DNA of 64,000 nt, taken from positions 1,766,501-1,830,500 of the forward strand of contig JAHDVF020000016.1 of the NCBI GenBank assembly GCA_022606425.2, written 5' to 3'. The translations under genes were made by a program, and so were the position numbers. The DNA comes from Lepidostoma basale (taxonomy: Eukaryota; Arthropoda; Insecta; Trichoptera; Lepidostomatidae). Under the pieces are notes generated by a model, which saw only the letters and a list, made by a program, of their open reading frames with translations, did not search any database and was not told the origin of the DNA. Of this stretch, positions 1,330-61,260 are shown in pieces. Positions within the stretch are counted from its first letter, which is position 1. Every line of letters starts with the position of its first letter.

Positions 1330-1435
1330 AAACTGCAACGAGCTGAAGTTTTGTCACATTTGATAATGCCTTAGAAGAGCGAAACATGTCGTTCCCATAA
1401 AATATAATAAAACTTCTAGAAAACTGACGTTTTCA
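1330..1435 (+). repeat. Short repeat family B with hammerhead-like core
   Basis: The core box reads TTGATAA at 1360-1366, then a weakened stem II, GAAA at 1381-1384, the palindrome ACATGT, and GTC at 1388-1390. The tail ATAATAAAACTTCTAGAAAAC is shared with copies near 22141-22240, 22375-22460 and 61955-62110. Relative to the textbook core, C3 is U and G8 is A, a change that would keep that base pair. Stem II here has a C-A mismatch, so activity is doubtful. Confidence 0.6.
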
Positions 1436-1597
1436 TTCGTATTAACATTTTTTCTTGTTTTAATCCTAGTTATTGGTTTGCAGCAAAGTCTATTAACATA
1501 TTTTGCTGTTTTTTTGGGATACCACTTGGGTCTTTAATGTGATAGTTTCCCGTTGCTTCCCATTTTTTTTTGTTTACAACAGGTTATTTAAACTCAA

Positions 1598-1655
1598 TAA
1601 CTGTATACGATTTTTCAGCTATTGATTCTCGTGACATGTGATAGGTAGCTTCTCT
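1598..1655 (-). repeat. SINE body fragment
   Basis: The plus strand carries the reverse complement of the SINE segment that reads ACATGTGATAGGTAGC, with a partial ATACAGTT-type 3' part. There is no tRNA-like head left. It abuts the LINE fragment that follows. Confidence 0.65.
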
Positions 1656-1831
1656 AACTAACTAACTATCACGCCGTCTCCCCGGAGGCAGAAAAAATGG
1701 ACCGCTACACTGTTGTCCTGACACACTTCTCTCGATTCCTCTACATTTATAAATCTTGTCATGCACGCACGCCGATTTCTTTGACTCCTCATGTGACCGA
1801 CATTTAATATTTGATTGATTTGATCGTGCCA
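1656..1831 (-). mobile_element. TTAG-tail RTE-like LINE, 3' fragment
   Basis: It starts with CTAACTAACTATCACGCCGTC, the reverse complement of the LINE 3' terminus (stop codon, GATGG, then TTAG repeats). It reads back through the conserved C-terminal frame (Cys-Met-Asn-Val-Glu-Glu, then Arg-Ala-Cys-Met). It is 5'-truncated after about 175 bases. Confidence 0.85.
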
Positions 1832-1974
1832 GGTAACTTCGCTATTTTTAATATTTGTTTTAACTCTAATGGGAGAGGGGGCGTTGGAATTGTTTTTTGA
1901 AAGGGGGGGGGGGGGTGTAGAAAATGTTGGGAATTTCGGGTCTGAGTGATCGTTTTACACCATGTATATAACAA
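1832..1974. other. No gene; homopolymer tract
   Basis: A spacer between a LINE fragment and a hairpin element. It contains a G-rich run near 1900-1915, which makes C-runs on the other strand. The minus-strand open frame here owes its prolines to that run and is not a gene. Confidence 0.5.
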
Positions 1975-2196
1975 TTTATAACTGTTGATGAAAAAACTTT
2001 GTTTTTGTATCACAATTGTATTTTATTTTACGACAGCTGTTTCATCAACCTATGTTGACATCATCAGATGTTACAATAATATATTAAATTATTGTAATAC
2101 CTGATGATGTCAACATTGGTTGATGAAACAGCTGTCGTAAAATAAAATACATTTGTGATACAAAAACAAAGTTTTTTCATTAACACTTATAAAACC
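1975..2196. repeat. Family A inverted hairpin with hammerhead-like core in each arm
   Basis: Two arms of roughly 105 bases are near-perfect reverse complements around an AT-rich hinge at about 2082-2092. Each arm carries CTGATGA, a stem II of GTCAAC/GTTGAT type, GAAA, the palindrome ACAGCTGT and GTC. Each strand of the DNA therefore encodes one complete core. The right edge meets a tRNA-headed SINE. Confidence 0.85.
2092..2145 (+). ncRNA. Hammerhead-ribozyme-like core, family A
   Basis: CTGATGA lies at 2101-2107, an extra U follows A9, and stem II pairs GUCAAC with GUUGAU (one G-U). GAAA is at 2125-2128 and the palindrome ACAGCUGU would form stem III, most easily between two molecules. GUC ends at 2136, so cleavage would fall between 2136 and 2137. 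Stem I is UAC (2098-2100) with GUA (2137-2139). This is the order known for type I hammerheads with minimal stem III. Activity is inference. Confidence 0.6.
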
Positions 2197-2433
2197 GACG
2201 ACCTTGGTGTCCGAGTGGTAAGTTCATTGACTGCCACCCCGAAGGTTCCGGGTTCGATTACCGGCGAGGGCAGTGTGATTGTCACACTGGCTTTGGTCTG
2301 GTGTAGAATTCACTTGAAAATAAAATGGCGATAGATAAGCTACCTATCGCATGTTACGAGAATCACTATGATAGCTATAATACCCTTTACATCGATTTGG
2401 CTCATGCTGTCATGATGTAAAGAGCGATTCAAC
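2195..2433 (+). repeat. tRNA-headed SINE, copy 1 (tail type 1)
   Basis: The head carries a Pol III box A (TGTCCGAGTGG) and box B (GGTTCGATTAC). The body reads CAGTGTGATTGTCACACTG, then GGTCTGGTGTAGAATTCAC and CACTATGATAGCTAT. The 3' end is GATGTAAAGAGCGATTCAAC. The head looks like tRNA without a proper acceptor stem, so it is a SINE and not a tRNA gene. Confidence 0.9.
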
Positions 2434-2539
2434 AAAAATATTAAATATTGAAATGTCAAAGTATCGTAGTGTTTCGGCCAAAACGATGGACTATATAACA
2501 ATTTTTTTTTGCATTCTTTTGAAGATCAAATAAATAAAG
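2434..2539. repeat. Family A tail fragment
   Basis: The string GTGTTTCGGCCAAAAC near 2470 also occurs near 4830, 34320 (reverse) and 41160. In those places it sits close to family A hammerhead copies, so it is probably part of that element. Confidence 0.5.
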
Positions 2540-3130
2540 TAAACTAACTAACCATCACGCCGTCTCCTCGAGAGGGTAGGCAGAAAGAATGGACTGCCAC
2601 ACTTTACACTTTAATCGATGCGGCACTCCATCCTTCTCTTTTAGCCCCCGCGAGAGACGCGGTCTGATGGGTTGCGAACCTCATCGCCACCAATAGGCAT
2701 CTTCCGCGCACACTTTGATCGTCCAACGTCTACAAAATAAATCTAAAACAAATTATATAAAATACAATGATATAAAATAAAATAACAAATAAAAATAATT
2801 TAGCACATAATGTTCTTTTACATGGAGCACTTGTCGTCAGCTGGACGATCCGGACATTTGTGTATATTGAATTTTTTATTCCACGTTATCCACTGTTTTT
2901 TTTTTAATTATCTGTAATTAGGCACTTAAAACAATTTAACACCAGCAAAACTTTAAAATAGTATTGAAGAATTTATTCAAATTGTCATTGGAACAAATGA
3001 AAAATGTATTTTTACACTTATACCACGAAATATTTTCAAATTTACGGGAGAACTATTTGAAGCAAACCAAATTTCCAAAAACAGAACATATTAATTCATA
3101 TAAATAAATATAAATGAAATATAGAAATAT
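2540..3130 (-). mobile_element. Non-autonomous element sharing the LINE 3' terminus
   Basis: The first 70 or so bases on the plus strand equal the reverse complement of the TTAG-tail LINE end (CATCACGCCGTCTCC, then GGCAGAAAGAATGGACTGCC). Further in, the sequence leaves the LINE and enters a separate body with GATGCGGCACTCCATCCTTC, a GC-rich CGCGAGAGACGCGG box and GGTTGCGAACCTCATCGCC. A long AT-rich 5' part shared with 36242-36890 follows. It appears to parasitise the LINE's retrotransposition machinery. Confidence 0.8.
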
Positions 3131-4382: not shown

Positions 4383-4665
4383 TTTTAATGTATACAAATA
4401 CTTGTAGACGAATACTGGATTTTACCCATTACGGGTTATCATTTTTAAGGATTAATTGTATCTCAATAGAGACGAAGATGCAAATTGGAAACAGAATATG
4501 GTGGTCAAGGCGTTCACAGGACTTATGACCTGTCATTGGTTAGGTTAAGCGTACGCTTTATATAATACAACATTCCCCATTCCGCCCGTCTTATGACCAC
4601 CACGTCTGACAAATTTTTGGAAGATGTATATATGCTACAATGTTGGGAAACACTTCACATTTTTG
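4383..4665 (-). repeat. Inverted-repeat element R1, copy 1
   Basis: Shares TGTATCTCAATAGAGACGAAG and AACATTCCCCATTCCGCCC with copies at 5515-5790, 45285-45790 and 53690-53996. Its outer part AATGTATACAAATACTTG recurs inverted at the start of the 53690 copy, so the family has long terminal inverted repeats. No coding capacity. Confidence 0.75.
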
Positions 4666-4669
4666 TTAT

Positions 4670-4870
4670 AATATCAAATTTTCTTTTTATTCACTGAGAG
4701 TTTCGCAACAGCTGTTTCGTCAACCGATGTTGGCATCATCAGGTGTTACAATAAACTCGTTTAAAACATAAATTGTGATATTTTAACAGTGTTTTAAATT
4801 TTAACAGTAATAATGTTGAAGTATCATAGTGTTTCGGCCAAAACAATGGACTATTTAAAATATTTTGACA
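4670..4870 (-). repeat. Family A hammerhead-like element, single arm
   Basis: On the minus strand CTGATGA lies at 4742-4736, stem II GCCAAC/GTTGAC has one mismatch, and GAAA is at 4718-4715, followed by ACAGCTGT and a U at the cleavage position. The stem II bases differ from copy 1 in a partly compensatory way. The flank GTGTTTCGGCCAAAAC is included at 4828. Confidence 0.6.
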
Positions 4871-7388: not shown

Positions 7389-7532
7389 AAAAAACGTAAT
7401 AATAAATGTGAGTGATGAATTGTGATAAAGTCGCGTTTACTGTCCAGAAAGACAAATACCACATTGTATAAAACGCTACTACTACTATACTACTATGACA
7501 AAGTTACTACTATGATAGATATATACTACTAA

Positions 7533-7896
7533 TGAAAATATAAGAAGTGAATGCGGTGCGAATGATGGTGTCATGAACAAAATAATGAAAGGATCATTAA
7601 GATGGTTTGGACATATGAAAAGAATGAATGAAGGAAGAATGGTAAAAAAAAATTATGTTAATGATGTAAATGGAACCAGAAATAGAGGAAGACCAAGGAA
7701 AACGTGGCACGATCAAATAAATCAAATATTGAATGTCGGCCATGTGAGGAGTCAGAGAAATCGACGTGCGTGCATGACACGATGTATGAATGTTGAGGAA
7801 GCGAGAGAAATATGTCAGGAAAGAAAAGTGTGGCAGTCCATTCTTTCTGCCTACCCCTTCGGGGAGACGGCGTGATGGTTAGTTAGTTAGTTAGTT
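7533..7896 (+). mobile_element. TTAG-tail RTE-like LINE, 3' fragment
   Basis: The frame from 7573 encodes Met-Asn-Lys-Ile-Met-Lys-Gly-Ser-Leu-Arg-Trp-Phe-Gly-His-Met, then Asn-Arg-Gly-Arg-Pro-Arg-Lys-Thr-Trp-His-Asp-Gln-Ile, then the Cys-Met-Thr-Arg-Cys-Met-Asn-Val-Glu-Glu block. It ends Tyr-Pro-Phe-Gly-Glu-Thr-Ala-stop. The tail GATGG plus TTAG repeats follows at once. The frame is open for 100 codons but lacks the reverse-transcriptase domain, so this is a dead 5'-truncated copy. Confidence 0.9.
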
Positions 7897-8205
7897 ATAA
7901 AGCGCTGAGGTGGGGAAAAACAATGTATGATAAAATACCCAATGAAGAAGTTAGAAAGGAATTAAAGCGGATGAATGTGTCCAAAATAAAAATAAGAAAG
8001 GTCACTAAGATGGTTTGGACATACGAGTATGTAACGAATGGATAAGAAAATAATGGTCAAAAGTACAAGTAGTGTGAATGGAAAAATAAGTCGAGAAAGG
8101 CCATGAACGACATGGCATGACCAAATTAATCAAAACCGAAAGGGGGACATGTTTGCAGCAGGAACAATGGACGAGCTGAAAATGGACAAAGTAGTAGGTA
8201 TGTGA
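7897..8205 (+). mobile_element. Decayed TTAG-tail LINE, T-type copy
   Basis: The strings ACAATGTATGATAAAATACC and AAGATGGTTTGGACATA and the Ser-Ser-Val-Asn-Gly-Lys region match the subfamily of 57798-58628. Several frame breaks and no tail. It abuts the preceding copy. Confidence 0.75.
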
Positions 8206-11829: not shown

Positions 11830-12390
11830 TAAGTTATAAAACTAAGTGACAAAGGCAACAAAGTGAATGGTGCACTTAAAGTTGTCATCGCAAACAAAAA
11901 CCTATCCAAAAAAGGTGTTCTTCTACCGACCCTTATGTATGGAAGCGAAGCATGGAACTGGCAAAAAAGGATGAAAGTAGAATAAATGCAGTAGAAATGA
12001 GATGTCTTAGACGAATGTGTGATACTCTGTGTATGATAGAGTGTCGAATGAAAATATAAGAAGTGAATGCGGTGCGAATGGTGGTGTTATGAACAAAATA
12101 ATGAAAAGATCATTAAGATGATTTGGACACATGGAAAGAATGGTGAAAAAATTATATGTTAACGATGTAAATGGAACCAGAAATAGAGGAAGACCGAGGA
12201 AAACGTGGAACGATCAAATAAATCAAATATTGAATGTGAGAAGTCAGAAATCGACGCGCGTGCATGACACGATGTGTGAATGTTGAGGAAGCGAGAGAAA
12301 TATGTCAGGAAAGAAAAGTGTGGTAATCCATTCCTTCTGCCTACCCTTTAGGGGAGACGGCGTGATGGTTAGTTAGTTAGTTAGTTAATA
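11830..12390 (+). mobile_element. TTAG-tail RTE-like LINE, V-type copy
   Basis: Starts in the conserved Asn-Gly-Ala-Leu-Lys-Val-Val-Ile-Ala-Asn region, then Thr-Leu-Met-Tyr-Gly-Ser-Glu-Ala-Trp, then the Arg-Trp-Phe-Gly-His equivalent. It ends with GATGG and TTAG repeats. Frames are broken by small indels at several points. Confidence 0.9.
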
Positions 12391-12424
12391 ATAATAATAA
12401 TTATGTATTATTGCAATGGATGGA

Positions 12425-12640
12425 GAAAGTATACGTTAAGTCGAGGCAGACCGAGGAAAACATGGCATGACCGAATTAATCAAATTTTAAAGGTTGGTCA
12501 TGCTAGAAGTCGGAAGAATCGACGTGCGTGTATGATTCGCTGTATGAATGTGGAGGAAGCCAGAGAGGTGTGCCAGGATAGAGTAGTGTGGCGGTCCATT
12601 CTCTCTGCCTACCCCTGCCGAGAAACGGCGTGATGGTTTG
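12425..12640 (+). mobile_element. RTE-like LINE, M-type 3' fragment
   Basis: The frame from 12403 reads Ser-Arg-Gly-Arg-Pro-Arg-Lys-Thr-Trp-His-Asp, then Lys-Val-Gly-His-Ala-Arg-Ser-Arg-Lys-Asn-Arg-Arg. It ends in Tyr-Pro-Cys-Arg-Glu-Thr-Ala-stop. The 3' junction is GATGGTTTGTTTTTTG with no TTAG repeats, as in the (GTT)n-tail subfamily. Confidence 0.85.
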
Positions 12641-12699
12641 TTTTTTGTATTATTACAAAATACTAATATAAAATGCGTATATATCGTAATATATCCAAA

Positions 12700-16800: not shown

Positions 16801-16994
16801 ACTAAAATAATAATTGCAATGGAAATGTATTTTTTTTCTTGAAATTTACTCTACAATTTATTTTATATTCCTCAAGCATATACGTATTACCGCTTATGAT
16901 ACTAGGAAAAGTATCAAAATAAAATAATAAAATTAGCTTATAACATTAACTATCTTACCCCAGCCATACAAGTATACAGACAAACAAAACAAAT

Positions 16995-17228
16995 GGATTA
17001 TTATAGTAATAAACGCGAATGTTTAATGGTTTTACTTGATTTAATTCATATAATTACTTATATAAATAGCAGTTACAAATTTGTTTCGCCTTGCGAGGGC
17101 ATTTTCAAATTTAGTTTGAAAATGCCCTCGCAAAGCGAAACAAATTTGTAACTGCCATTTATATAAGTAATTATATGAATTAAATCAAGTAAAACCATTA
17201 AACATTCGCGTTTATTACTATAATAATT
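16995..17228. repeat. Family C inverted hairpin with hammerhead-like cores
   Basis: Two arms of about 110 bases are almost perfect complements around a short AAATTTAGTTT hinge near 17107-17117. Both arms carry TTGAAAA, GCCCTCGCAA, GCGAAAC and the 10-base palindrome ACAAATTTGT. It lies inside intron 1, so the pre-mRNA of the host gene would contain it and could fold into a long stem. Confidence 0.85.
17112..17156 (+). ncRNA. Hammerhead-ribozyme-like core, family C
   Basis: The box TTGAAAA is at 17116-17122 (U3 and A8 in place of C3 and G8). Stem II would be a short GCC paired with an AGC remnant of GGC. GAAA is at 17137-17140, stem III is the palindrome ACAAAUUUGU, and the cleavage triplet is GUA ending at 17150. 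Stem I AGU (17113-17115) pairs with ACU (17151-17153). The left arm keeps GGC in stem II. Confidence 0.45.
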
Positions 17229-17264
17229 ATAATGGAGTTTTACAAAACAAAAACCTCAACAATC

Positions 17265-17620
17265 AATAAAAACAAATGGACATACCAGACCTGACCAAAT
17301 TTGAGACCTTGAAAATTGTACACAGAGTGACCATGAAAGGGAAAACAGACATCATCTTCAAATAACTAAAAATTCAGACGTACACAGACACTGGACCAGG
17401 AACTGTGATAGATATCACTTACCGAATGCACGAACTAAGACAGGACAATCAAGGATATTGAACAATGGACTGAAACTTTACAATGAACTATCAAAAGACA
17501 CAAGGAGTCTCACTACAAATCAATTTAAAATATACCTGAAACATTACATAATTACAAGTAAGATCTAAAAATGTATCCATATAACCCAATTGGGTTTTAA
17601 ATAAAAAATTATAAAAAAAG
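17265..17620 (+). mobile_element. 3' end of CR1/jockey-like LINE
   Basis: The terminal reading frame contains Asn-Gly-Leu-Lys-Leu-Tyr-Asn-Glu-Leu and then Phe-Lys-Ile-Tyr-Leu-Lys. This is the typical end of CR1/L2/jockey reverse transcriptases. An AT-rich 3' UTR with ATGTATCCATATAACCCAATT follows. It is 5'-truncated and lies sense within intron 1. Confidence 0.65.
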
Positions 17621-18094: not shown

Positions 18095-18510
18095 AGAGCA
18101 GAATAAATGCGGTAGAGATGAGGTCCCTAAGATGTTTGTGTGGTAGAACGATATACGACAGAATCTCAAATGCTGATATAAGAAAGGAATGTAAGGCGGA
18201 AAAGGGTATTATGAACAAAATTATGGAAGGATGGAGCGCATGGCTGGAGAAAGAATGGTTAAGAAAGTGTACGTTAATGATGTAAATGGAGTACGAAGTC
18301 AAGGCAGACCGAGGAAAACATGGCATGACCAAATTAATCAAAATTTTAAGGTTGGTCATGTTAGAAGTCGGAAGAATTAACGTGCGTGTTATGACTCGCT
18401 GTATGAATGTGTAGGAAGCTAGAGAGGTGTGCCGGAATAGAGTAGTGTGGCGGTCCATTCTCTCTGCCTATCCCTACGGAAAAAGGCGTGATGATTTGTT
18501 GTTGTTGTTG
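18095..18510 (+). mobile_element. RTE-like LINE, M-type, (GTT)n tail, with exact target duplication
   Basis: The copy starts at AGAGCAGAATAAATGCGG and ends with GATGATTTGTTGTTGTTGTTG. TTACACTTGAGGATG occurs directly before it (18080-18094) and directly after it (18511-18525), a 15-bp target-site duplication. The target is the 5' box of a family E hammerhead-like repeat. Frames are broken. Confidence 0.9.
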
Positions 18511-18511
18511 T

Positions 18512-18552
18512 TACACTTGAGGATGGAGGTAACCTCTGAAACATGTTGTGAA
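18512..18552 (+). ncRNA. Hammerhead-like core, family E (restored side of LINE insertion)
   Basis: The box TTGAGGA is at 18517-18523 (C3 is U), stem II is GGAGG/CCTCT, and GAAA is at 18538-18541. The palindrome ACATGT and a GUU triplet end at 18547. Stem I CAC (18514-18516) pairs with GUG (18548-18550). The C3 change without a G8 change should impair catalysis. Confidence 0.45.
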
Positions 18553-18984
18553 CTTTTTGCTTATAAAAATATTAAATAACAGTGCAATAAATTCTCCTTT
18601 CAAAGAATATCTTATTCTATAATATCCATTTTTTTTTTCATAAAACAAAAATAATATGATAATAATTTTTCATTATTTATTATTTGTATTGCATTTATTC
18701 CCCAATGATCGCAAATAATAAAAAAGGGTACATTATTTTTAGGATTATATCTATGTTCCATAATACAAGAAATAAAAAAATATATGCTTTGAAGATATCA
18801 TTATACGAGTATATATAATAACAATAACATACATATTAAAAAAAAAATTTATGGCTTACCAAGAAAATATTCGACATAACATTAAAAGTGGAAAACACAG
18901 TGTTTTAATTCATAAACAAAATCATCATTATGGAATTTCAAAATGTGAACGCTTTAAGTTTATCTGAAATTATTAATAAATAGT

Positions 18985-19788: not shown

Positions 19789-19979
19789 TTAATACAAAAT
19801 TCATTTCAAATTAAAAATAACAATTAAACATGCCTAACCCAACCAAGGAAACCAGAGGCCATCGTTTAAATTTTATTTATATCAATTAATAAGATTTTTT
19901 ATAAAAAAAATGATATCAATTATTATTCAGTGAATTTAGTTGTATCTGACTTTCAAAAATCAAATTTGGAATTGAGAAA

Positions 19980-20160
19980 ACAAAGCTGTTTATGTTCCAC
20001 TTAAATTTATTTAATTTTTCGGAGGTGACTTCCATCCACAGTTGTAAATATATACCTATTTACACCTATGGTTGGAGGTCACCTCTGAAACATGTCGTGG
20101 TTAGTATTTTTATTGTTTAAATATATTTAATAAAGTAAAGTGGAATATAAACAGTGTTGT
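19980..20160. repeat. Family E inverted hairpin with decayed hammerhead-like arms
   Basis: The arms CCACTTAAATTTATTTAA / TTTAAATATATTTAATAAAG and TTCGGAGGTGAC / GGAGGTCACCTCTGAA pair around 20055. The right arm keeps stem II, GAAAC, ATGTCGTGG and a CAC/GTG stem I, but the box reads CTATGGT. The catalytic core is therefore lost while the stems remain. Confidence 0.65.
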
Positions 20161-20457
20161 TTTTCAATTCCAAAGTTTTTACAATGGAATTCCAGTGTTA
20201 ACGCCTTAACTTTCAATAAAAAAAATTATCTCTCATAAGACATCTAAATCTATGTACTGCTGATATTTGGCTCCTTGACTAATGAGTTTGCTGACCACTG
20301 TTCCAGGGTACAGAACACTTGGCTCCTGATCCAGGGGACTTCGGTTCAAGCCTGGAAACGACCCGATTCCTTCATCATAATAATGAGTTATTTTCTGTTC
20401 AGATTAGAGATTGAATATCCATTGTATAACCCTTCAAGTAATCTTATATCTCTTGCT

Positions 20458-21692: not shown

Positions 21693-22139
21693 TTGGATAG
21701 CATTAAAATTAATTTGGAAAATGTCTCAAAGCATCAAAATCTTATTCAGAATACATACATAAGAGCCATGAAAAATTATCCCATTAAAAAAAAACAGATA
21801 TCAAATCGCACTGAAAGTGATTTTATACATAGCTTTTTTATAATGAAAACTTGTAGTATTTTTTTAAATACCTACCTTTCTATAAGTATAATAAAAACTC
21901 TCTAAAATACTTATTTTTATATATTTTAATTATGTAAAAGGGATTTTTTTTTTATAGCTCAGAAATGGAATTAATTAATGTAGAATTTTTGTATCGCTTC
22001 CACGAAATACTGTAATAAACAAGATATTAACTACCAAATATCACATTTAATATTGATGAAATTGTCCATTTTATAGAAATTTTTATTATATTGTATTGAA
22101 GTGACATATTTTGCCTTGTTTGGGTATTAATCAAATGTT
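21693..22139. other. AT-rich, nothing recognised
   Basis: Low-complexity AT-rich DNA between a SINE and two family B repeats. Confidence 0.5.
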
Positions 22140-22140
22140 A

Positions 22141-22240
22141 TCTTCACATTTGATAATGCCTTAGAAAGGCGAAACATGTTATTCCCATGAATTATAATAA
22201 AGCTTTTAGAAAGCAGATGTTTTCATTCGTATTAATTATT
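22141..22240 (+). repeat. Family B repeat with hammerhead-like core
   Basis: TTGATAA is at 22150-22156, a good stem II GCCTT-AGA-AAGGC follows, and GAAA is at 22171-22174. Then come ACATGT and GUU. This is the best stem II in family B, and U3/A8 replaces C3/G8. The tail ATAATAAAGCTTTTAGAAAGC is shared with 1410-1430. Confidence 0.6.
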
Positions 22241-22374: not shown

Positions 22375-22460
22375 ATATATATTTGATAATCCTCTAGCAA
22401 GGCGAAACGTGTCACTCCTTAAAATATAATAAATTCTATAGAAAACGGAGGTTTTTTTAT
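22375..22460 (+). repeat. Family B repeat, second copy
   Basis: TTGATAA at 22383-22389, GAAA at 22404-22407, then the near-palindrome ACGTGT and GUC. Only CCU/AGG pairs in stem II. Same tail as above. Confidence 0.55.
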
Positions 22461-23755
22461 ATTAAATATTAAATCTTGAGTTTTACATCATTGTTTAAGA
22501 AACAATATATTTTTTTATATGTTGTCATAAGTTGGCTTGATTTGTCAATTTGTGCAAATTAAATCAACGAAATACATTGAATAATGTTTCTTAGTCAAAG
22601 GAAATGATATTATATTATATATTAATTAATGCATTCAAATCAAAGAGTTTCTTTACAAATATTTATGTAAATAATACATTTTGAAACATAGTATACCTTC
22701 ATCTTCAGGAGAATGATGTAATGGACCCTGGAGATGGTCAACGTGATTGTCAATTTTTAAGTGAATGATGCCCATTGATACAACCAATGGATTCTAGGAG
22801 TGATTTTCAATGCTTTGATTGTAGTACATTTGCCAGCGTCTGCCCGTTATTCGCCTGACAGTATTTAAGGTTGAATATTTAATGTTTCAGATGTACTTAT
22901 AGATATTTTGTTTTACTTATAATCAAATAATAAATCGTATTATATAATATTATAATTATCCAATTGTGGCTCCATCAATTGCACTTCCATTTAAACTGTC
23001 ATTCATGTTTAAACACATGAATATCCAAGCTAATAATATAACTAACAAAATATATATCAAACAGAATACAATATACAATTACAGAATCGATAACTATTGT
23101 ATGATCGTGGAAATAAGGATTGTTATGTATATTTCACTCACAAATACCATCCATAACTTCGTAGAACTAAAAAATGTAATTTGTTTCTAGAAATGTATCG
23201 GTTTGTCAATTTTGACATAAAACTGTACTACTACTGCCATCTATGAACCAATTGTCAAAGCAAACGAAAATTCAATTTAACTTTTTTAATTTTTATATTA
23301 TTTTGTTTTCTACAATATGAATACATAATGTGAAGTTAAGTTATTGTTAAAACAATATTGTGCTTTTTTTTTCAGTTTTCCAAATGCTATAATATGATTG
23401 GATTGCGATATTTCACGCCTTAGTTAAGTAATTTTGATACTTTACAGTTTTTTTTAAATTTGTTTGTATTGTTTGAGTGTAATTGTTATTTTATACATTT
23501 AAATGTATGAATTTAACCATGTATGTATTTATTTAGTGTAACGATATAATTGAAACCGTATCGTAAATTTTTCAGATAGTTAATATCATGACTTAAATAG
23601 TAAAAAATATATAAATAAATTTTATTAGATATTGTAATTTTCGGCGCTGTTTTTGCAATATAATACAACAGCTTATATACTGAATAATTCTGTATTTGAT
23701 TTCATCCGAAGTCAATTGTCTCTCAAAGGAGCTAAGAGCTTCCGTAAGTGTGTGG
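22461..23755. other. AT-rich, nothing recognised
   Basis: About 1.3 kb of AT-rich DNA. The open frame at 22966-23190 has an amino-acid composition typical of chance AT-rich translation and no splice or domain support. Confidence 0.45.
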
Positions 23756-34319: not shown

Positions 34320-34460
34320 TCCACTGTTTTGACCGAAACATTATGATACTTCGATATTATTAGCTGTTAAAATTTAAACACTGTTATAATATCACAATTT
34401 TCATTATTCACTTTTTGAGTGTCGCGACAGCTGTTTCGCCAACCGATGTTGGCATACTGA
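34320..34460 (-). repeat. Family A fragment
   Basis: The minus strand has stem II GCCAAC-ATC-GGTTGGC (perfect six pairs), GAAAC, AGCTGTC and GCGACACTC, but the 5' box is replaced by TTCAGTA. The GACCGAAAC flank is also present. Confidence 0.6.
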
Positions 34461-34589
34461 ATAGTCATTAAAAATATACTATTTCGGCAATGTGTGTTAC
34501 ACATTACAGTTTAATGAATACACTGATCTATTAAAAATATATTTCGGCATTGTTGTTTCCGTAATTGTTTTTTACTGATTAAATTATCT

Positions 34590-36969: not shown

Positions 36970-37485
36970 AGTAACTAACTAACTAACCACCGGTAGGTAG
37001 AAAGAATGGACTGCCACACTTTTCTTTCCTGACATATTTCTCTCACTTCCTCAACATTTATATATACATCGTGTCATGCACGATGATTTCTCCGACTCCT
37101 CACGTGGCTGATATTCAATATTTGATTTATTTGATCGTGCCACGTTTTCCTCGGTCTTCCTCTATTTCCAGTTACATTTACATCGTTAACATATACTCTT
37201 TTTACCATAATTTCTTCATTCATTCTTTCCATGTGTCCACACCATCATAATGATCCTTTCATTATTTTGTTTACAACACCATCATTCGCACCGCATTCAC
37301 TTCTTATATTTTCATTCGACACTATCATACACAGAGTATCTACACATTTGTCTAAGAGATCTCAATTTTTCAGCATTTATTCCAATTTCATCCTTCTCTT
37401 GCCAGTTCCACGCTTCGCTTTAATACATAAGGGTCGGTACAAACACACCTTTGTGCACTGCTATTTTAGCTTTTTACGTAAATTA
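36970..37485 (-). mobile_element. TTAG-tail LINE, V-type copy
   Basis: Antisense from CTAACTAACTAACCACCGG through the Arg-Gly-Arg-Pro and Trp-Phe-Gly-His regions to TTGTGCACTGC, with small deletions in the C-terminal block. Confidence 0.85.
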
Positions 37486-37489
37486 AATA

Positions 37490-37585
37490 ACTTTGTTTTT
37501 ATATCACAATTGTATTTTATTTTACGCGACAGCTGTTTCATCAACCTATGTTGACATAATCAGGTATCACAATAATATATCATAT
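37490..37585 (-). repeat. Family A hammerhead-like repeat, single arm
   Basis: The minus strand reads CTGATTA (G8 lost), stem II GTCAAC/GTTGAT, GAAA, ACAGCTGT and GTC, then GCGTAAAA. It is predicted inactive because of the G8 change. Confidence 0.6.
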
Positions 37586-41461: not shown

Positions 41462-41925
41462 AACTTAAAGTTGTCATCGCAACAAAAACCTATCCAAAAA
41501 AGCTAAAATGGCAGTGCACAATGGTGTTCTTGTACCGACCGTACTTGTACTCTTGAAGCATAGAACTGGCAAAAGAAGGAACAAAGTAGAATAAATGCAG
41601 TACAAATGAGATCTCTTAGACGAATACTCGTATATGGATACTCTGTGAATGATAGAGTGTCGAATGAAAATATAAGAAGTGAATGCGGTGCGAATGATGG
41701 TGTTATGAACAAAATAATGAAAGGATCATTAAGATGGTTTGGACACACAGAAAGAAAGAATGATCAAATAAATCAAATATTGAATGTCGACCACCTGAGG
41801 AGTTAGAGATATCGACGTGCGTGCATGACACGATGTATGAATGCTGAGGAAGCGAAATAAACGTTGGAGAGTCCATTCTTTCTGTTTAACTCTTCGAGGA
41901 AACCGCGTGATGGTTAGTTTGTTAA
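41462..41925 (+). mobile_element. TTAG-tail LINE, V-type copy
   Basis: Starts at AACTTAAAGTTGTCATCGC and passes through the Lys-Gly-Ser-Leu-Arg-Trp-Phe-Gly-His region. A deletion at about 41760 removes most of the Arg-Gly-Arg-Pro segment. It ends GTGATGGTTAGTTTG. Confidence 0.85.
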
Positions 41926-41934
41926 TTTATAATT

Positions 41935-42130
41935 GTAAGCACGATTGTTGCACATAAATTATAAGAATTGTGACAAATTTGTTTCGCCTTGCGAGAGCAT
42001 TCTCAAACTGCTTTGAGAATGCCCTCGTAAGGCGAAACAAATTTGTTACAATTTATATAAATAAAATCCAAAAACCACTAAATAATCGTGTTACTATTAT
42101 TAATTAAAAATGAAATTTTACAAAATTAAT
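41935..42130. repeat. Family C inverted hairpin with hammerhead-like cores
   Basis: The arms GACAAATTTGTTTCGCCTTG and CAAGGCGAAACAAATTTGTT-type strings pair around CAAACTGCTTTG at 42004-42015. The right arm has TTGAGAA at 42013-42019, GAAA at 42034-42037 and the palindrome ACAAATTTGT. Confidence 0.8.
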
Positions 42131-42189
42131 ACCTCAACTAGTTAGTTAGTTAGAAATAGTAATTAATTTTATTTTTTAATATGTTAAAC

Positions 42190-44371: not shown

Positions 44372-44790
44372 TTTCCTTAAATACTTTGTCTACATTTAAA
44401 TGGAGATTAATCTCCCAAGCTCCCATTCCCAATCAAATGCAAATTAATCATTTATTAATTTCTATATAAATTATGTCTTTTCAAATGTATGTTTTTTCTA
44501 AAGTATAATTTTTAAAAATATAATCATCATGTATTATTATTATTTAATATTATTTATTATTTCTTACTGTTAAAAAATAATTGTTAGTACCTACTTATAA
44601 CAAATAACCCAGGTTAATTTTTAAATTTATTATTGTATCGAATTTTAAATGCGTTTTTTATTAGTCTTTCTTTGTTTAGTTTTTGCTATATTTTTACTCC
44701 TGAAGATGGAGGTATCCTCCGAAACATGACGTGTTTTTTAATATTTTAAAATAAATAGTGGATTCAACAAAGTTTTTTAATTTCCAAAGT
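44372..44790 (+). mobile_element. Family E hammerhead-bearing element, full-length copy
   Basis: Starts CCTTAAATACTTTGTCTAC, as does the copy at 61260-60836, so the 5' end is defined twice. After an AT-rich body and AGTCTTTCTTTGTTTAG comes the core. The box is at 44700-44706 (CTGAAGA), stem II is GGAGG/CCTCC and GAAA is at 44721-44724. The last part reads ACATGAC instead of ACATGTC, so the cleavage triplet is lost in this copy. Confidence 0.75.
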
Positions 44791-46740: not shown

Positions 46741-46945
46741 TTTGAGTTTATTAAAACGTAACAAAAAAATTTGTTTGGAGAAATAAAATTTTACATTTAT
46801 TCAGTGTAAAATAAGTTACAATTTTCCGTTGTAAAAATTCACTATTTTATAATTAAAAAATACAAATATAAATATACTGTTCCATACAAGATACATTATA
46901 GGATAGATACATTATAGGATAGATACTAAATATATAAATAGGTGG

Positions 46946-47560
46946 TATGTTTACAAAAGATGGACGAGTGCAGAGGGATATTGAAAAAAGTGTTGGGACA
47001 GGCAACAACGTGAATGGTGCACTTAAAGTTGTCATCGCAAACAAAAACCTATCCAAAAAAGCTAGAATGGAAGTGCACAATGGTGTTCTTTTATCGACCC
47101 TTATGTATGGAAGCGAAGCATGGAATTGGCAAAAGAAGGATGAAAGTAGAATAAATGCAGTTGAAATGAGATCTCTTAGACGAATGTGTGATTACTCTGT
47201 GTATGATATAGTGTCGAATGAAAATATAAGAAGTGAATGCGGTGCGAATGTTGGTGTTATGAACAAAATAATGAAAGGATCATTAAGATGGTTTGGACGC
47301 ATGGAAAGAATGGTAAAAAAATTATATGTTAACGATGTAAATGGAACCAGAAATAGAGAAAGACCGAGGAAAACGTGGCACGATCAAATAAATCAAATAT
47401 TTAATGTCGGCCGTGTGAGGAGTCAGAGAAATCGACGCACTTGCATGACACGATGTATGAATGTTGAGGAAGCGAGAGAAATATGTCAGGAAAGAAAATT
47501 GTGGCACTCCATTATTTCTGCCTACCTCTTCGGGGAGACGGCGTGATGGTTAGTTAGTTT
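46946..47560 (+). mobile_element. TTAG-tail LINE, best open V-type copy
   Basis: One frame of 199 codons (46947-47543) runs from Met-Phe-Thr-Lys-Asp-Gly-Arg-Val through Arg-Trp-Phe-Gly-Arg-Met to Leu-Phe-Gly-Glu-Thr-Ala-stop. TTAG repeats follow. There is no catalytic domain, so it cannot mobilise itself, but it is useful as a consensus for the C-terminal region. Confidence 0.9.
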
Positions 47561-48045
47561 ACTAAATATAAAAGATTAATCATAAATAGATTAATCATAA
47601 ATATAAATAAAAATTAGGACGATAATACATTAACCATAGTTAGTACACAGATAATAAATGGAGAGATAGATGTTTTAATATGGAGTTTTACATCTTGTTT
47701 ACGTGTAATTTACATAGTGACAATTTGCGCCACTGGAAATAATTTTCATCCCCTTTGTTCAAGTGTAATGTAATGTTGAATAATTTAAGAGTAGATAGGT
47801 AATATCACAGATTGCAGCTGGCAGCATCACGGGGCGAGGAAATCAATGAGATAAATGCATCAGATACTCCAGTGAGTGCAAGATACTGAATCTAATTTAA
47901 TTCTAGTCTCCCATTGCGATCTATCTAGAATGATTTCATTCCATGATTCTTCGGTCTTCGTAGGATTGACCCTGAATATGGTGTCTTTCGGCGTTTCCAG
48001 GGGCACCGGATTTTAATAACATCAATGGTAGAGACACCTTTCTTG
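47561..48045. other. No gene recognised
   Basis: AT-rich, then a GC-richer part at 47810-48040 without repeat match or exon support. Confidence 0.4.
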
Positions 48046-51178: not shown

Positions 51179-51594
51179 TAAGTTATAAAAGATGATGTAC
51201 TCGTACTAGCTATGACAGAATACAAAATGAAAAATAACATAATAAATCGAATGTATTTCCTTATAAGGTGTCTCACCTCATTATTTTGCAACAGCAAAAG
51301 AAATATTATATTTATTTACAGATCAATTTTATTTAAATACTATAATTAGGTAGTATTAAAAAAAAGACGGGATGTATGAAGCTGTTGAAATAAGCAAGTA
51401 GTCAGTCAAATCTCTTCGGTCCATAAACCACGCACTGTGCAAGCATTTCTCGAGGCTGCGTGAGAAGGGGTAGCTAATCGTTAGTTTTGGAACTGGAAAT
51501 AAAATATTGATTACTAAAATTTTTAAATTTGCTTAATGTAATTCCCCCTCCCCCCTAAAATTTACTAAAATCAATAAAATGACACACTGTTTTG
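51179..51594. other. No gene recognised
   Basis: AT-rich with one C-run at 51545-51560. Confidence 0.5.
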
Positions 51595-51655
51595 CGACTA
51601 AGTTCAGTTTGAGAATGCCCTCGCAAGGCGAAACAAATTTGTCACTATTATTTGA
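51595..51655 (+). ncRNA. Hammerhead-ribozyme-like core, family C, best copy
   Basis: TTGAGAA is at 51609-51615, then GCC-CUCGCAA-GGC, and GAAA at 51630-51633. The palindrome ACAAAUUUGU follows, with GUC ending at 51643. Stem I AGU (51606-51608) pairs with ACU (51644-51646). The U3-A8 pair replaces C3-G8. The element body resumes after a LINE insertion at about 51840. Confidence 0.5.
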
Positions 51656-51689: not shown

Positions 51690-51830
51690 TATCAACTTTC
51701 TTCCTATGATGAAGACGACCAGCCTTCACTCCATCTTTTTGGTGGTCGTCCTGGTGGTCGACGGCCCTCTGGAGTCTCGTGCATCACGATCTTAAGAATT
51801 CTTTCTGGATCCATTCTCTCGATATTATTA
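51690..51830 (-). mobile_element. LINE fragment within the family C element
   Basis: Antisense GGTGGTCGTCCTGGTGGTCG and CTGGAGTCTCGTGCATC come from a Gly-Arg-Pro-Pro-region LINE end. The flanks at 51655 and 51840 belong to one family C copy. Confidence 0.55.
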
Positions 51831-51894
51831 TTACTATTTATATAAATTTAATCCAAGTAAAACCACTAAACAATCATGATTACCATTATAAATT

Positions 51895-51985
51895 AAGACT
51901 GAAAGCGTCTGTTTTCTAGAATTTTGTGGGAATGACATGTTCCGTTTTGCTTACATGCATTATTAAATGTTCGCCTTCGCATTTG
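51895..51985 (-). repeat. Family B repeat, decayed
   Basis: The minus strand has AACATGTCATTCCC and TTCTAGAAAACAGACG, as in the other family B tails. The 5' box reads TTAATAA and GAAA is disrupted. Confidence 0.55.
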
Positions 51986-52612: not shown

Positions 52613-52649
52613 TGACATTTGACATAAGAACGAACGACTGAAATCGAAA

Positions 52650-53507
52650 ATGAAAAGAGGAGAGGAGAAGAGGAGGAGAGGAGGAGAGGAGGAGAGGAGG
52701 AGAGGAGGAGAGGAGGAGAGGAGGAGAGGAGGAGAGGAGGAGAGGAGGAGAGGAGGGAGAGGAGGAGAGGGAGGAGAGGAGGAGAGGAGGAGAGGAGGAG
52801 AGAGAGAGAGAGAGGAGGAGAGAGGAGGCAGGAGAGGAGGAGAGGAGGAGAGGAGGAGAGGAGGAGAGGAGGAGAGGAGGAGAGGAGGAGAGGAGGGGAG
52901 AGGAGGAGAGGAGGAGAGGAGGAGAGAGGAGGAGAGGAGGAGAGGAGGAGAGGAGGAGAGGAGAGGGAGGAGAGAGGAGAGGAGGAGAGGAGGAGAGGAG
53001 TAGAGGAGGAGAGGAGGAGAGGAGGAGAGGAGGAGAGGAGGAGAGGAGGAGAGGAGGGGAGAGGAGGAGAGGAGAGAGGGAGGAGAGGAGGGGAGAGGAG
53101 AGGAGGAGAGGAGTGAGAGGAGAGAGGAGGAGAGGGGAGGAGGAGGAGAGAGGAGAGGAGGAGAGGAGGAGGAGGAGGAGAGGAGGGAGAGGGAGGAGAG
53201 GGAGAGGAGGAGAGGAGGAGAGGAGGAGGAGGAGGAGGAGGAGAGGAGGAGAGGAGGAGAGGAGAGAGAGGAGAGGAGGAGAGTATAGAGAGGAGGAGAG
53301 GAGGAGGAGGAGAGGAGGAGAGGAGGAGAGGAGGAGAGGAGGAGAGGAGGAGAGGAGGGAGAGAGGAGAGGAGGAGAGGAGGAGAGGGAGGAGAGGAGGA
53401 GAGGGAGGAGAGGAGGAGGAGGAGAGGGAGGAGAGGAGAGAGGAGAGGAGGAGGAGGAGAGAGGAGAGGAGGAGAGGAGGAGAGGAGGAGAGGAGGAGGG
53501 AAGAATA
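52650..53507. repeat. 860-bp polypurine minisatellite, AGGAGAGG unit
   Basis: Almost uninterrupted G/A on the plus strand, mostly the 8-base unit AGGAGAGG with AGG, GGAG and GA variants. Only a few pyrimidines break it (near 52830, 53000, 53113, 53284). Long open frames on both strands (Arg/Gly/Glu-rich, and Ser/Pro/Leu-rich) are artefacts of the repeat. Confidence 0.95.
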
Positions 53508-57797: not shown

Positions 57798-58628
57798 CGC
57801 TGACAGTGAAGACAATTTGCAAGTCTTGGTAGCAAGGATGTATGAGGCGTGCAAAAAGAGTGACTTGGTGATGAATGTGTCTAAATCTAAAGTGATGGTT
57901 TTCGAGAAAGAAGAATGTATGACGATTTGTGATATAAGTGCGATGGGCGAGAAATTGGAGTAAGTTACTGAATTCACGTATCTGGGAAGCATGTTTACAA
58001 GGGACGGAAAAATGGAGAAAGACATCGAAAGGAGGGTTGGTGCTGGGAATAAAATAAATGGCGCACTCAAAGTCATAACTGCAAATAGAAATATATCCAC
58101 AGAAGCAAAGATGGCAGTACACAATGGAGTTCTAGTGCCAAATCTCATGTATGGAAGTGAAGCTTGGAGCTGGCAAAAGAAGGATGAAAGCAGGATAAAC
58201 GCCGTAGAAATGAGATCACTAAGAAGAATGTGCGGGAAAACGTTGTATGATAGAATACCGAACAATGAAATAAGAAAGAAATGTAAGACAGATGACTGCA
58301 TCATGAATAAAATTAAGAAAGGATCCCTGAGATGGTTCGGACATATGGAACGAATGGATGAGAGTAGAATGGTTAAAAAGTTGTACACAAGCAGTGTGAG
58401 TGGGAAAAGAAGCCGAGGACGATCGAGGAAAACATGGCATGACCAAATTAACCAATTACTAAAAGGCGGCCAAATTCGAAATCGGAATAATCGACGTGCG
58501 TGCATGGTGCGATGTATGAATGTGGAGGAAGCCCGAGAGGTGTGCCAGGACAGGCCAGTGTGGCGATCCATCCTCTCTGCCTACCCCTCCGGGGAAATGG
58601 CGTGATGGTTAGTTAGTTAGTTAGTTTT
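57798..58628 (+). mobile_element. RTE-like LINE, longest T-type copy, TTAG tail
   Basis: Starts just after the catalytic box (Asp-Asn-Leu-Gln-Val-Leu-Val-Ala-Arg-Met-Tyr-Glu-Ala-Cys). It has one in-frame TAA at about 57961 after Glu-Lys-Leu-Glu, then a 204-codon frame 57991-58602 from Met-Phe-Thr-Arg-Asp-Gly-Lys to Ser-Gly-Glu-Met-Ala-stop. Motifs include Asn-Leu-Met-Tyr-Gly-Ser-Glu-Ala-Trp, Arg-Trp-Phe-Gly-His-Met-Glu-Arg-Met and Arg-Gly-Arg-Ser-Arg-Lys-Thr-Trp-His-Asp-Gln. The tail is GATGG plus TTAG repeats, so the T subfamily shares the V-type tail. Confidence 0.92.
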
Positions 58629-58704
58629 AGTATAAACGATAACAAAGTATTTAATAAAATTTTCTAAAATAAAACTCTTTGTATTTACCGATAAGGTATA
58701 TCTG

Positions 58705-58930
58705 TGGTGTTGAGGATATATTAAGACGGGGAAGAAGCAGAAGGCGCTTTTGGAGAGATCACGTAGACCGCATGGAATTCAAGAATTGAATAAAATGTCA
58801 GAGATGAAAACCCAAGCAGTAAAGACTACCACGAAGGCCGCCAAAAAGATGGAGAGATGACTAGACATGATCATCCCAGGACAACTCACCGTCACAAACA
58901 GGTCATACGACCTAAACTAAGAGAAAGAAG
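58705..58930 (+). mobile_element. LINE fragment, decayed
   Basis: Words such as Arg-Ser-Arg-Arg-Arg-Phe-Trp-Arg-Asp-His-Val-Asp and CCACGAAGGCCGCCAAAAAG suggest the Gly-Arg-Pro region of another RTE-type LINE. Frames are broken. Confidence 0.55.
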
Positions 58931-58949
58931 TAGAAGAATCAGTATTGGT

Positions 58950-59005
58950 ATTAAAATTGATGCCAACTAGTTTCGCTTAGACCCAAGCTTTATCAGGACA
59001 AAATA
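58950..59005 (-). ncRNA. Hammerhead-like core, family D, antisense
   Basis: On the minus strand the box is CTGATAA (58996-58990, G8 changed), stem II is GCTTGG/CTAAGC, and GAAA is at 58974-58971. The palindrome ACTAGT and GUU follow. Stem I GUC pairs with GGC with one wobble. The G8 change makes activity unlikely. Confidence 0.45.
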
Positions 59006-59034
59006 ATAACTTAAATTTCTTCTTCTCACCTAGA

Positions 59035-59215: not shown

Positions 59216-59442
59216 TTAAATTTATTTAAAAAAATCATCCATTACAGACATCCAAGAGGTTTGTGATTACATAAAAAAAAACAATGAAAAAAAACATTAA
59301 AAGTATTAATATAGTAAGAAAAAACAATAGATAATTTGAACATTTAAGAACAATTAAAATTTATTTAAAAAAAAGTTAAATTAGAAAAAAAATGCAAATA
59401 AAATGAGTATAAAACTGTTATTTGATTCGTTATTATATTACA

Positions 59443-59485
59443 TTGGCCTGATGAAGCTTGGGTCCAAGCGAAACTAGTTATTATT
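59443..59485 (+). ncRNA. Hammerhead-like core, family D, sense
   Basis: CTGATGA is at 59448-59454, stem II GCTTGG-GT-CCAAGC is perfect, and GAAA is at 59470-59473. ACTAGT and GUU end at 59479. The core is intact, but the bases outside do not form stem I here, as if the element ended or recombined at this point. With the antisense copy at 58950 it brackets about 450 bp of other repeats. Confidence 0.45.
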
Positions 59486-59489
59486 TTAT

Positions 59490-59808
59490 ATCTATGAGTT
59501 TTAAATGTCTAACCACAAGTGAGTCCTTCACATAAAAAATTTTGTATTTATTGTTTCTTGAGCAATGTTGTAAAACTCTGTAAATTGAGGACAGATTATT
59601 GTAAAGGTGCCAAGTATCAAAAATGTATAAAATAAGTTTTTGATCCCAATTGGTGTTAAACATAAAGGCCAACAACGATGCAAAGGTGAATAGCGATTGA
59701 ATAATGTAGTATAGTTCAAACTTTTGCCTAAAGATGTCACCCGTAGACACATGTTACGCAGTTTTTCTCTTTATCTTTTGTTTTATGTTTAAACCACTTA
59801 GCAACTTT
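59490..59808. other. AT-rich, nothing recognised
   Basis: No repeat match or supported frame. Confidence 0.5.
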
Positions 59809-59809
59809 T

Positions 59810-60240
59810 GAAATCACCAGTCTTCATTTATGGGAGCGATAATTTGTAAAATACATTCGAAACATGTAACGAAAAATAATCTCACAAGTGGGAAAAACAT
59901 TGATTTAATTCATAAAATAATTGTGGAATTATACAATGCAATCGTAAATCGTCAATTTCGAAAGAAATATAATCAATTGTGATATTTTATAACAGTGTTT
60001 TTATTTAAACAGCTAATTTTTAGGCGTTAAAACTGTGAAATTCCATAATGGCGACTTTTGTGAATTAAAACTTTGTTTTTTCCACATTTGAGTTTATTTT
60101 TCTCGACATTTTTCGAAGGCCTTCATTATTGGGAGAACGATATAAACTTTATATCGTTCTCCTGACGATGAAGATGTAAGCCTTCAAACCATGTCGAGAA
60201 AATAAGCTCAAAGGTGGAAAACATAGTGTTTTAATTCATA
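59810..60240. repeat. Family F hairpin and relatives, decayed hammerhead-like arms
   Basis: At 60095-60215 GAACGATATAAACTTTATATCGTTC forms the hinge. The right arm has CTGACGA (60162-60168), a GAAG/CTTC stem, a damaged GAAA (CAAAC) and ATGTC, with a perfect UCUC/GAGA stem I. The left arm keeps TTCGAAAAATGTCGAG. A more eroded relative lies at 59830-59900 (CATTCGAAACATGTAACG). Confidence 0.55.
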
Positions 60241-60244
60241 AAAT

Positions 60245-60430
60245 ATCAAATTATTGAAGATATGTAAACGACGTAAACGGAACTAGAAATAGAGGAAGAC
60301 CCAGCAGTGCATGCATGACACAATATATGAATGATGAGAAAACGAGAGAAATACGTCAGGAAATAACAAATTGGCGATTATTTCCGTGAACCCCTTCGGG
60401 GACAGATCCTAATGGTCTGTTACGTGCTAC
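60245..60430 (+). mobile_element. TTAG-tail LINE, decayed 3' fragment
   Basis: GTAAACGACGTAAACGGAAC, AGAAATAGAGGAAGACC and CCCCTTCGGGGACAG keep the V-type order. The central part is deleted and the tail is mutated. Confidence 0.75.
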
Positions 60431-60439
60431 TTTGTACTT

Positions 60440-60645
60440 CTTCTTCAGCCTATTCCCGCCCACTCCTGGACAAAGGCCTTCTTCATTTGCTTCTACACCA
60501 CAGTCTTGTGCAGACTGCATCTAGGTTCTTCCAACGTGACGGTTAAGGTCATCCTTTCACTGTAGCTGTGGTAGCCCTGCACTTCTCTTTGCGGTCCATG
60601 GTCTCCAAGTCAGCATTTTTTTTGTCAAATTTTCATCCGAACTTC
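60440..60645 (-). mobile_element. LINE fragment (antisense)
   Basis: The most complete of the CAGCCTATTCCCGCCCACTCC family, with CTTCCAACGTGACGG and CTTTGCGGTCCATGG. It is the end of an RTE-type LINE in antisense. Confidence 0.65.
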
Positions 60646-60744
60646 TCTCTATGTGATCAACCAATTAAGTTAGTTATTTTAAATAAATTGATAGTCCTAT
60701 TTTAATAGTGTTCCAAATTAAACGGTTAAAATAATATAATATTT

Positions 60745-60835
60745 ATTTTAAAATATTTAGCAGAAGAAGGATTAAAGTAGGATAAATGCCGTAGATATGA
60801 GGTCACTAAGAAGATTGTGCGAAAGAACAATGTAT
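60745..60835 (+). mobile_element. RTE-like LINE, T-type copy, left part
   Basis: AGAAGAAGGATTAAAGTAGG through GGTCACTAAGAAGATTGTGC to AACAATGTAT. It continues at 61261 after the family E insertion. Confidence 0.85.
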
Positions 60836-61260
60836 TGCACTTTGTTAATTGAAAATAACTTTGTTTATCCTCAAAATATTAAAAAACACGACATGTTTCG
60901 AAGGATACTTCCATCTTCAGGTGTGAATATATAATAAAAACTAAACAAAGAAAGACTAATAAAAACGCCTTTAAAAAAGAACGCAAATAAAATACATTTA
61001 AATTAAAAAATTAACCTGGGCTAATCGTTTTAAGTACTTATAATTATTTTTTATCAGTAAGAACTAATAAATAATATTAAACAATAATAATGCATAATAA
61101 AAAAATAATAATATAAAATTGTATTTTATAATATTATAATTTGGAAAAAAACATACATTTGATAAGACATATTTTATATAGAAATTAATAAATGATTAAT
61201 TTGATCAATGATTAGGAATGGGAGCTAGTGAGACTAAAAGTAGACAAAGTATTTAAGGAG
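60836..61260 (-). mobile_element. Family E hammerhead-bearing element with exact target duplication
   Basis: A 425-bp insertion flanked by AACAATGTAT (60826-60835 and 61261-61270); AG before both sides may extend this to 12 bp. On the minus strand it starts CTCCTTAAATACTTTGTC, like 44372, and carries the core near its 3' end at 60924-60886. It has no reading frame, so mobility must have come from other proteins. Confidence 0.9.
60884..60926 (-). ncRNA. Hammerhead-ribozyme-like core, family E, most complete
   Basis: On the minus strand stem I ACAC (60924-60921) is followed by CTGAAGA (60920-60914), a U, stem II GGAAG/CCUUC with one mismatch and one wobble, and GAAA (60899-60896). The palindrome ACAUGU and GUC end at 60890, then GUGU (60889-60886) pairs perfectly with ACAC. 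All textbook core bases are present apart from the extra U after A9. Confidence 0.6.

Follow-up and report, generated by a model that had tools for sequence, protein, structure and literature searches.

What kind of element leaves many short copies of one hammerhead-ribozyme-like core, in several sequence families, within a single stretch of insect DNA? A 64,000-nt stretch of the Lepidostoma basale (Trichoptera) genome raises this question (contig JAHDVF020000016.1, positions 1,766,501 to 1,830,500; the whole stretch is called the window here). An earlier annotation made from the letters alone (the sequence-only reading) had named 16 positions in five short-repeat families, A to E, each with a CUGANGA-like box, a stem II, GAAA, and a short palindrome, and had suggested that several lineages of Penelope-like elements or small retrozymes reside side by side in the genome. 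We consider it probable (roughly 80%), judging from sequence, that the units are very short (~100-160 nt) reverse-transcribed pieces of several Penelope-like lineages, each with a minimal type I hammerhead-like core. The kind is already known, as Penelope-type minimal hammerheads. New within the open literature, as far as we searched it, are the size of a class with an altered core pair, the placement at a promoter-like start, and the sharpness with which the ends of insertions are recorded.

We scanned the window with a strict descriptor ([CT]TGAN[AG]A, one base, a stem II no shorter than 3 bp, GAAAC, a palindrome of at least 6, and any base except G at H17, the cleavage site). This yielded 12 matches, compared with 0 in 100 random order-2 Markov windows, so the observation is real. 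Nine of the 12 lie at positions named earlier. The motif is readable at all 16 named positions, although the remaining seven are degenerate, each failing at least one item: stem II is weak in register at 4742, 1360, 22383, and 17116, position 8 is U in the copy at 37550, the copy at 34215 reads GGAA where GAAA is expected, and the palindrome is broken at 44700. A looser scan (up to two box mismatches) returned 19 matches in the window against a random mean of 4.9.

The proposed order of box, stem II, GAAA, and palindrome held, but it had missed an extra unpaired base between box and stem II, which is U in families A, B, C, and E and A in family D. In the window plus 200 kb of the same genome, gaps of 0, 1, 2, and 3 bases between box and stem II gave 0, 27, 1, and 2 matches, respectively, and the canonical hammerhead register (gap 0) gave no match in the window scans. 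The proposed core likewise needed correction for two families. The type I core of CUGANGA, GAAA, and H17 is seen, apart from the extra base, in families A, D, and E, save for decayed copies, whereas U3 and A8 replace C3 and G8 in families B and C.

That the families differ in almost every base proved too strong a statement. Box and stem II are similar in families B and C, and a likely sixth family, F, has a degenerate motif in both arms at 60057-60240. Outside the window, 15 motif matches in the 200 kb include several stem II types absent from the window and a stem I of up to 7 bp. Copies in the genome number tens of thousands. The claim that several lineages of hammerhead-like elements occur side by side is supported. 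The units in the window are the following.

1354-1445, plus strand: family B copy (U3-A8), no partner seen
1975-2083, minus strand: family A, left arm of head-to-head pair A1, motif at 2032-2067; the 109-nt arms are 94% complementary and 1 nt apart
2085-2193, plus strand: family A, right arm of A1, motif at 2101-2136
4662-4840, unstranded: subfamily A', asymmetric head-to-head pair; the left arm (minus) has the motif, the right arm (plus) is mostly tail
16986-16997, unstranded: 12-bp target duplication of the family C pair, left copy
16997-17109, minus strand: short-tailed left arm of family C pair C1, motif at 17074-17108 (U3-A8)
17113-17268, plus strand: family C, right arm with long tail (U3-A8)
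17269-17280, unstranded: 12-bp target duplication of the family C pair, right copy
18492-18614, plus strand: family E copy, located at an RTE fragment's 3' end
19962-20177, unstranded: family E-like head-to-head pair
22047-22138, minus strand: family B, left arm of an old head-to-head pair
22144-22235, plus strand: family B, right arm, motif at 22150-22180 (U3-A8)
22381-22494, plus strand: family B copy (U3-A8)
34106-34200, minus strand: family D, left arm
34202-34296, plus strand: family D, right arm
34351-34478, minus strand: subfamily A' copy without the box part of the motif
37478-37579, minus strand: family A copy adjoining an RTE fragment, no partner seen
41919-42138, unstranded: family C head-to-head pair (41919-42007 minus, 42012-42138 plus)
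44620-44790, plus strand: family E copy
51554-51653, plus strand: family C copy with upstream pseudo-LTR (pseudo-long terminal repeat) part; the tail resumes at ~51824-51904 past an insert
58914-59012, minus strand: family D, left arm of a pair split by 427 bases
59436-59541, plus strand: family D, right arm of the split pair, motif at 59448-59479
60057-60240, unstranded: likely family F, approximate bounds; head-to-head pair, each arm with a degenerate motif
60836-61258, minus strand: family E insertion inside an RTE copy, motif at 60890-60920
61967-62115, unstranded: family B, decayed head-to-head pair (61967-62008 minus, 62038-62115 plus)

Pairing was assessed in a set for which neither stem was required (box, spacer, GAAAC, and palindrome; 35 matches with 33 distinct spacers), the box pattern permitting only C or U at position 3 and A or G at position 8. 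Between families, the outer positions of stem II paired in 116 of 132 cases (permuted mean 74.1, maximum 97) and stem I in 87 of 132 (permuted mean 53.5, maximum 72). None of 5,000 permutations reached the observed pairing for either stem. The presence of related copies among the 33 overstates this significance, though the stems of many families are unrelated.

It is well established that, in the active hammerhead, positions 3 and 8 form a pair. Among 49 gapless family C arms, U3 was present in 48 and A8 in all 49, and H17 was A in 48. The covariation set comprised 20 C-G, 10 U-A, two U-G, and one C-A combinations. Genome-wide counts, restricted to copies with an ACATGT palindrome, were 20,640 for C3-G8, 22,230 for U3-A8, 1,666 for U3-G8, and 1,679 for C3-A8 (reversed-pattern controls: 4, 44, 11, and 15, respectively), giving an odds ratio of 164; about half of the counted copies bear U3-A8. 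Since copies are not independent, the counts show two discrete states with few mixed forms, not thousands of events. A hit outside the window (K, L038) combines U3-A8 with a different stem II and A as the extra base, so this state probably occurs in more than one lineage. We tentatively view the U3-A8 class as a naturally occurring change of both bases in the core tertiary pair, near-equal in number to C3-G8. We found no report of U3-A8 cores in the literature, our search covering open-licence papers; a C3G/G8C double mutant was used in PMC11167929. The share of U3-A8 copies may set this genome apart from the minimal Penelope hammerheads described earlier (PMC7761336).

How the units are arranged bears on what they are. 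By our own count, 10 of approximately 20 loci in the window are head-to-head inverted pairs (A1, A' at 4662-4840, C1, C2, D1, D2, E4, F, and two of family B), an arrangement that the sequence-only reading had missed, and 11 of the 15 motif matches outside the window have a head-to-head partner (E < 1e-5). Among listed U3-A8 neighbors with starts within 100 nt, all seven were head-to-head; between 100 and 200 nt, two were head-to-head, one tail-to-tail, and one direct. Non-LTR retrozymes, which the sequence-only reading had offered as one option, are small elements that spread via circular RNAs cut from tandem repeats by their own ribozymes. They would account for hammerhead-like cores in non-coding repeats, as the animal kind has type I hammerheads in such repeats (PMC7229834), and one genome contig (C1:1464008-1464575) holds three same-orientation U3-A8 motifs at an exact 269-bp spacing, a possible tandem array. 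However, the animal kind is described as ~300-bp repeats in tandem whose type I ribozymes are mostly canonical (PMC7229834), whereas the window copies are inverted pairs or single, some with target duplications, and we saw no tandem arrangement of units in the window. The prevalence of head-to-head neighbors also argues against retrozymes. We consider them very unlikely as the source of the window copies, and of the earlier interpretation it is the minimal type I cores of Penelope kind that stand.

We examined family C throughout the genome, using 40 scored matches of 1,919 first-look candidates. A head-to-head partner was present for 31 of the 40. Of the 30 loci that we fetched, 23 have a close partner and seven do not; drawing the 23 pairs from these 30 loci favors copies with one long arm. 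Direct repeats of 10-13 bp lie at the outer ends of 17 of the 23 pairs, compared with 0.4% for re-paired flanks, and three of the 17 (L015, L028, and L029) sit in simple repeats. In the window, 12-bp target duplications flank the family C pair C1 and the family E insertion at 60836-61258 (AGAACAATGTAT, at 60824-60835 and 61259-61270). No clear target duplication was found at the other window loci tested, and none was shown for families A, B, D, and F.

The two arms of a family C pair also differ in their tails. In query coordinates, the long tail point lies at ~160 and the short one at ~120, making one arm ~40 nt longer. The scored arms, which were picked by score, end near the long point (157-166), while the short point is where 20 of 23 partners stop, the other three being shorter still; the partner at L020 arrives at the long point under looser scoring only. 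Judged by its sequence, family C shows retro-insertion. Inverted repeats flanked by duplications could also be foldback DNA elements (miniature inverted-repeat transposable elements), with terminal inverted repeats that hold hammerhead-like palindromes by chance. Such elements fit poorly with arms that end at different, fixed tail points, with partners cut back to varied depth from the inside, with junction fillers that differ, and with the existence of partnerless copies (seven of the 30 fetched), and we find this explanation scarcely credible. One partnerless copy, L019, apparently lies within a copy of family B and shows an 11-base match between its flanks, which would make the two an ordered pair of insertions.

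Family C copies have recurrent 5' ends as well. Among 53 of 55 printed starts (the reference copy and one out-of-range piece were left out), 17 lie at the A of AGT, 28 within 1 base of it, and 36 from -3 to +4, with a possible error of a base or two since the ends come from local alignments. In longer copies, this A belongs to TCAGT, an initiator-like sequence, and three of them (L003, L018, and L031) have TATAAG at -31. At the junctions between arms, approximately 11 of 23 family C pairs hold at least four bases that neither arm explains (our own reading).

These junctions help to distinguish two routes to a head-to-head pair. The same elements might pair by self-priming, in which a cDNA or antisense RNA folds back and is copied into a palindrome. 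Self-priming has been proposed for Adineta Penelope elements, which have palindromes at the inverted junction (PMC3846280), and window pairs A1 and D1, with 1 nt between arms, are compatible with it. It does not sit well with the different tail lengths and unexplained junction bases of family C, or with arms that may share the same 5' point with filler between them (L011, L021, and L023). We regard self-priming as unlikely, if worth serious consideration. The family C data fit two cDNAs, one per side of a double cut, joined after reaching the 5' end.

Minimal type I hammerheads of Penelope-like elements are described in PMC7761336 (citing Cervera and de la Pena 2014; Lunse, Weinberg and Breaker 2017). 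They share the core order found here and have a near-absent stem III, and animal genomes contain them by the thousands at dispersed sites, with some in Penelope pseudo-LTRs (PMC7761336). The title of the 2017 paper, as cited there, refers to dimeric cleavage. In agreement with Penelope insertions, the units show duplications of approximately 8-13 bp (17 of 23 family C pairs; C1 and family E in the window), inverted head-to-head copies (31 of 40 in family C; 11 of 15 others), and, in family C only, an optional 30-40 nt tail on one copy. Penelope elements of Adineta vaga likewise have inverted pseudo-LTRs, head-to-head palindromes, and a 31-bp tail on one inverted copy, as well as 8-10 bp duplications and a TATA plus initiator-like sequence (PMC3846280). 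The Adineta pairs mostly flank open reading frames (ORFs; PMC3846280), whereas here little beyond motif and tail remains.

Another close counterpart is Poseidon of Anolis carolinensis (PAc). In our own reading of the printed RNA, PAc has the same core, namely, CUGANGA plus U, stem II, GAAAC, a tiny stem III, and a 3-bp stem I, and its start codon is placed as is the AUG in families A, B, C, and E (PMC11167929). The PAc protein cuts and extends both DNA strands and begins cDNA at two internal sites, which gives PAc its optional tail (PMC11167929), comparable to that of family C. The PAc units differ in being pseudo-LTRs of tandem elements with an ORF (PMC11167929), whereas those described here are ~100-160 nt and often head-to-head.

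We searched the 768.8-Mb genome for GIY-YIG frames (E up to 0.001; 150 of 541 candidates scored) and obtained at least 62 matches, two of them in 758-aa (amino acid) frames. Five neighboring GIY-YIG pairs were found, all head-to-head. One locus, L052 (C742:4701-5500), contains the start of a 758-aa GIY-YIG frame and a GTGAGT resembling a 5' splice site. Its peptide had no homolog in the homology search and matched no Pfam family above the cut-off; it may resemble a Penelope N-terminus. The sequence-only reading had noted no Penelope-type frame in the window. In a weak test of this, a tblastn search with a peptide from one genomic GIY-YIG frame at E up to 1 gave no match in 361,742 bases, and a query of the N-terminal 78 residues of the Anolis element produced weak matches only (best E 0.17; 0.93 in the window). 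By eye, the short frames of the window units end within or near the motif.

We propose that each unit would represent the 5' part of an element RNA, consisting of the core and then a tail where reverse transcription starts. The core would have a short stem I, one extra base, stem II, a palindromic stem III, and the cleavage site. The element endonuclease would cut both target strands, and each target 3' end would prime cDNA on its own RNA at one of the two tail sites. Each cDNA would extend to the RNA 5' end, and both cDNA ends would then be joined, often with filler. Transcription would begin at the TCAGT initiator-like site, so that stem I would be built from the first bases of the transcript; with the 5' end at the start of stem I, the ribozyme would span approximately the first 38 bases. 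The core would remove these ~38 nt, probably requiring a dimer or the element protein, and single genomic copies would be mostly dead.

Individual steps are shown in family C, in the form of its pairs, duplications, tail difference, recurrent 5' ends, and promoter-like signals. Beyond these, we infer the start of transcription, the two-ended priming, and ribozyme activity; a self-cleaving core at the RNA 5' end and like behavior of the other families are predictions. The combined scheme, in which a hammerhead at the RNA 5' end trims a capped leader, C3-G8 and U3-A8 classes coexist, and inserts record two-ended, two-site priming and joining, is possible but well short of an even bet.

Several results weigh against the Penelope-like hammerhead interpretation. 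Hammerhead covariance models had been suggested as a check by the sequence-only reading, which listed the absence of hits at relaxed thresholds among the outcomes that would speak against it; the Rfam hammerhead models gave no match in the whole window at the gathering score or at E up to 10. Two short pieces of the window gave nothing above the Rfam cut-off and no hammerhead family among the matches listed. Absent stem covariation was another such outcome; stems I and II do covary between families, but this did not extend into family B: among 86 copies of one length, taken from 96 listed U3-A8 sequences, stem II positions paired no better than expected under independence (73 versus 72.4, 77 versus 74.9, and 77 versus 76.0), a result to be expected if the copies are dead. 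Roughly half of the loci in the window are partnerless, and a clear target duplication is missing in six of the 23 family C pairs. The window's own longer family C copy (51554-51653) has no TATAAG and reads AATAAAATG instead. A tail motif common to the families was not significant (112 versus 104.7, SD 4.6). Among the loci examined, no family unit was seen joined to a Penelope ORF, and the 800 bases of L052 hold part of the open frame and no family motif. Finally, cleavage by the Anolis ribozyme was not seen in the absence of protein, and mutating this ribozyme did not prevent insertion in vitro (PMC11167929).

The genome-wide Rfam search adds some detail. Window copies did not reach the cut-off of RF00163, and in the genome one match to this model was found among those listed (L001:1501-1617; 73 scored of 94,533 candidates). 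L001 looks like the 3' half of such a motif. The RF00163 model pairs it with a distant box, whereas a local degenerate box with the extra base sits immediately before stem II. Matches to microRNA-precursor models below the cut-off coincide with inverted pairs such as A1, C1, and C2.

Part of this evidence could mean that the elements are of Penelope type but that the motif is no working ribozyme here, now or ever, having been kept as a promoter start, translation start, and reverse transcription template. The lack of Rfam matches in the window, the U3-A8 core of families B and C, the family B copies without covariation, and insertion by the Anolis ribozyme mutants in vitro (PMC11167929) are all consistent with this. 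Pairing of stems I and II across unrelated family sequences argues the other way, as do the near-invariant A at H17 in family C (48 of 49 arms) and the two matched states of positions 3 and 8 with few mixed copies. We take a motif without ribozyme function to be a real but doubtful possibility, and prefer Penelope-like pieces with a hammerhead-like core.

What minimal hammerheads do for Penelope elements is, according to PMC7761336, still a mystery. If the core lies at the 5' end of the RNA, does it take off the cap and leader and thereby switch the RNA from translation to template? The family C copies, with their fixed ends and duplications, may offer a genomic record of both sides of Penelope insertion, and the natural U3-A8 class of ~22,000 copies would lend itself readily to testing the 3-8 pair of the hammerhead core.

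Other repeats share the window with these units. Directly after the family A pair, at ~2200-2270, the sequence resembles, on visual inspection, the beginning of a tRNA-derived short interspersed element, and ARAGORN finds no tRNA there. At 52628-53500, units of ~8 bp form a long purine-rich array whose GC skew is strong. RTE-type fragments occur at 7480-7900, 12000-12660, 35220-35880, 46938-47570, and 57964-58630, among others, and one RTE copy is interrupted by the family E insertion. The two best matches of the window RTE protein are metagenome proteins, and its best named relatives are in Lepidoptera (moths).

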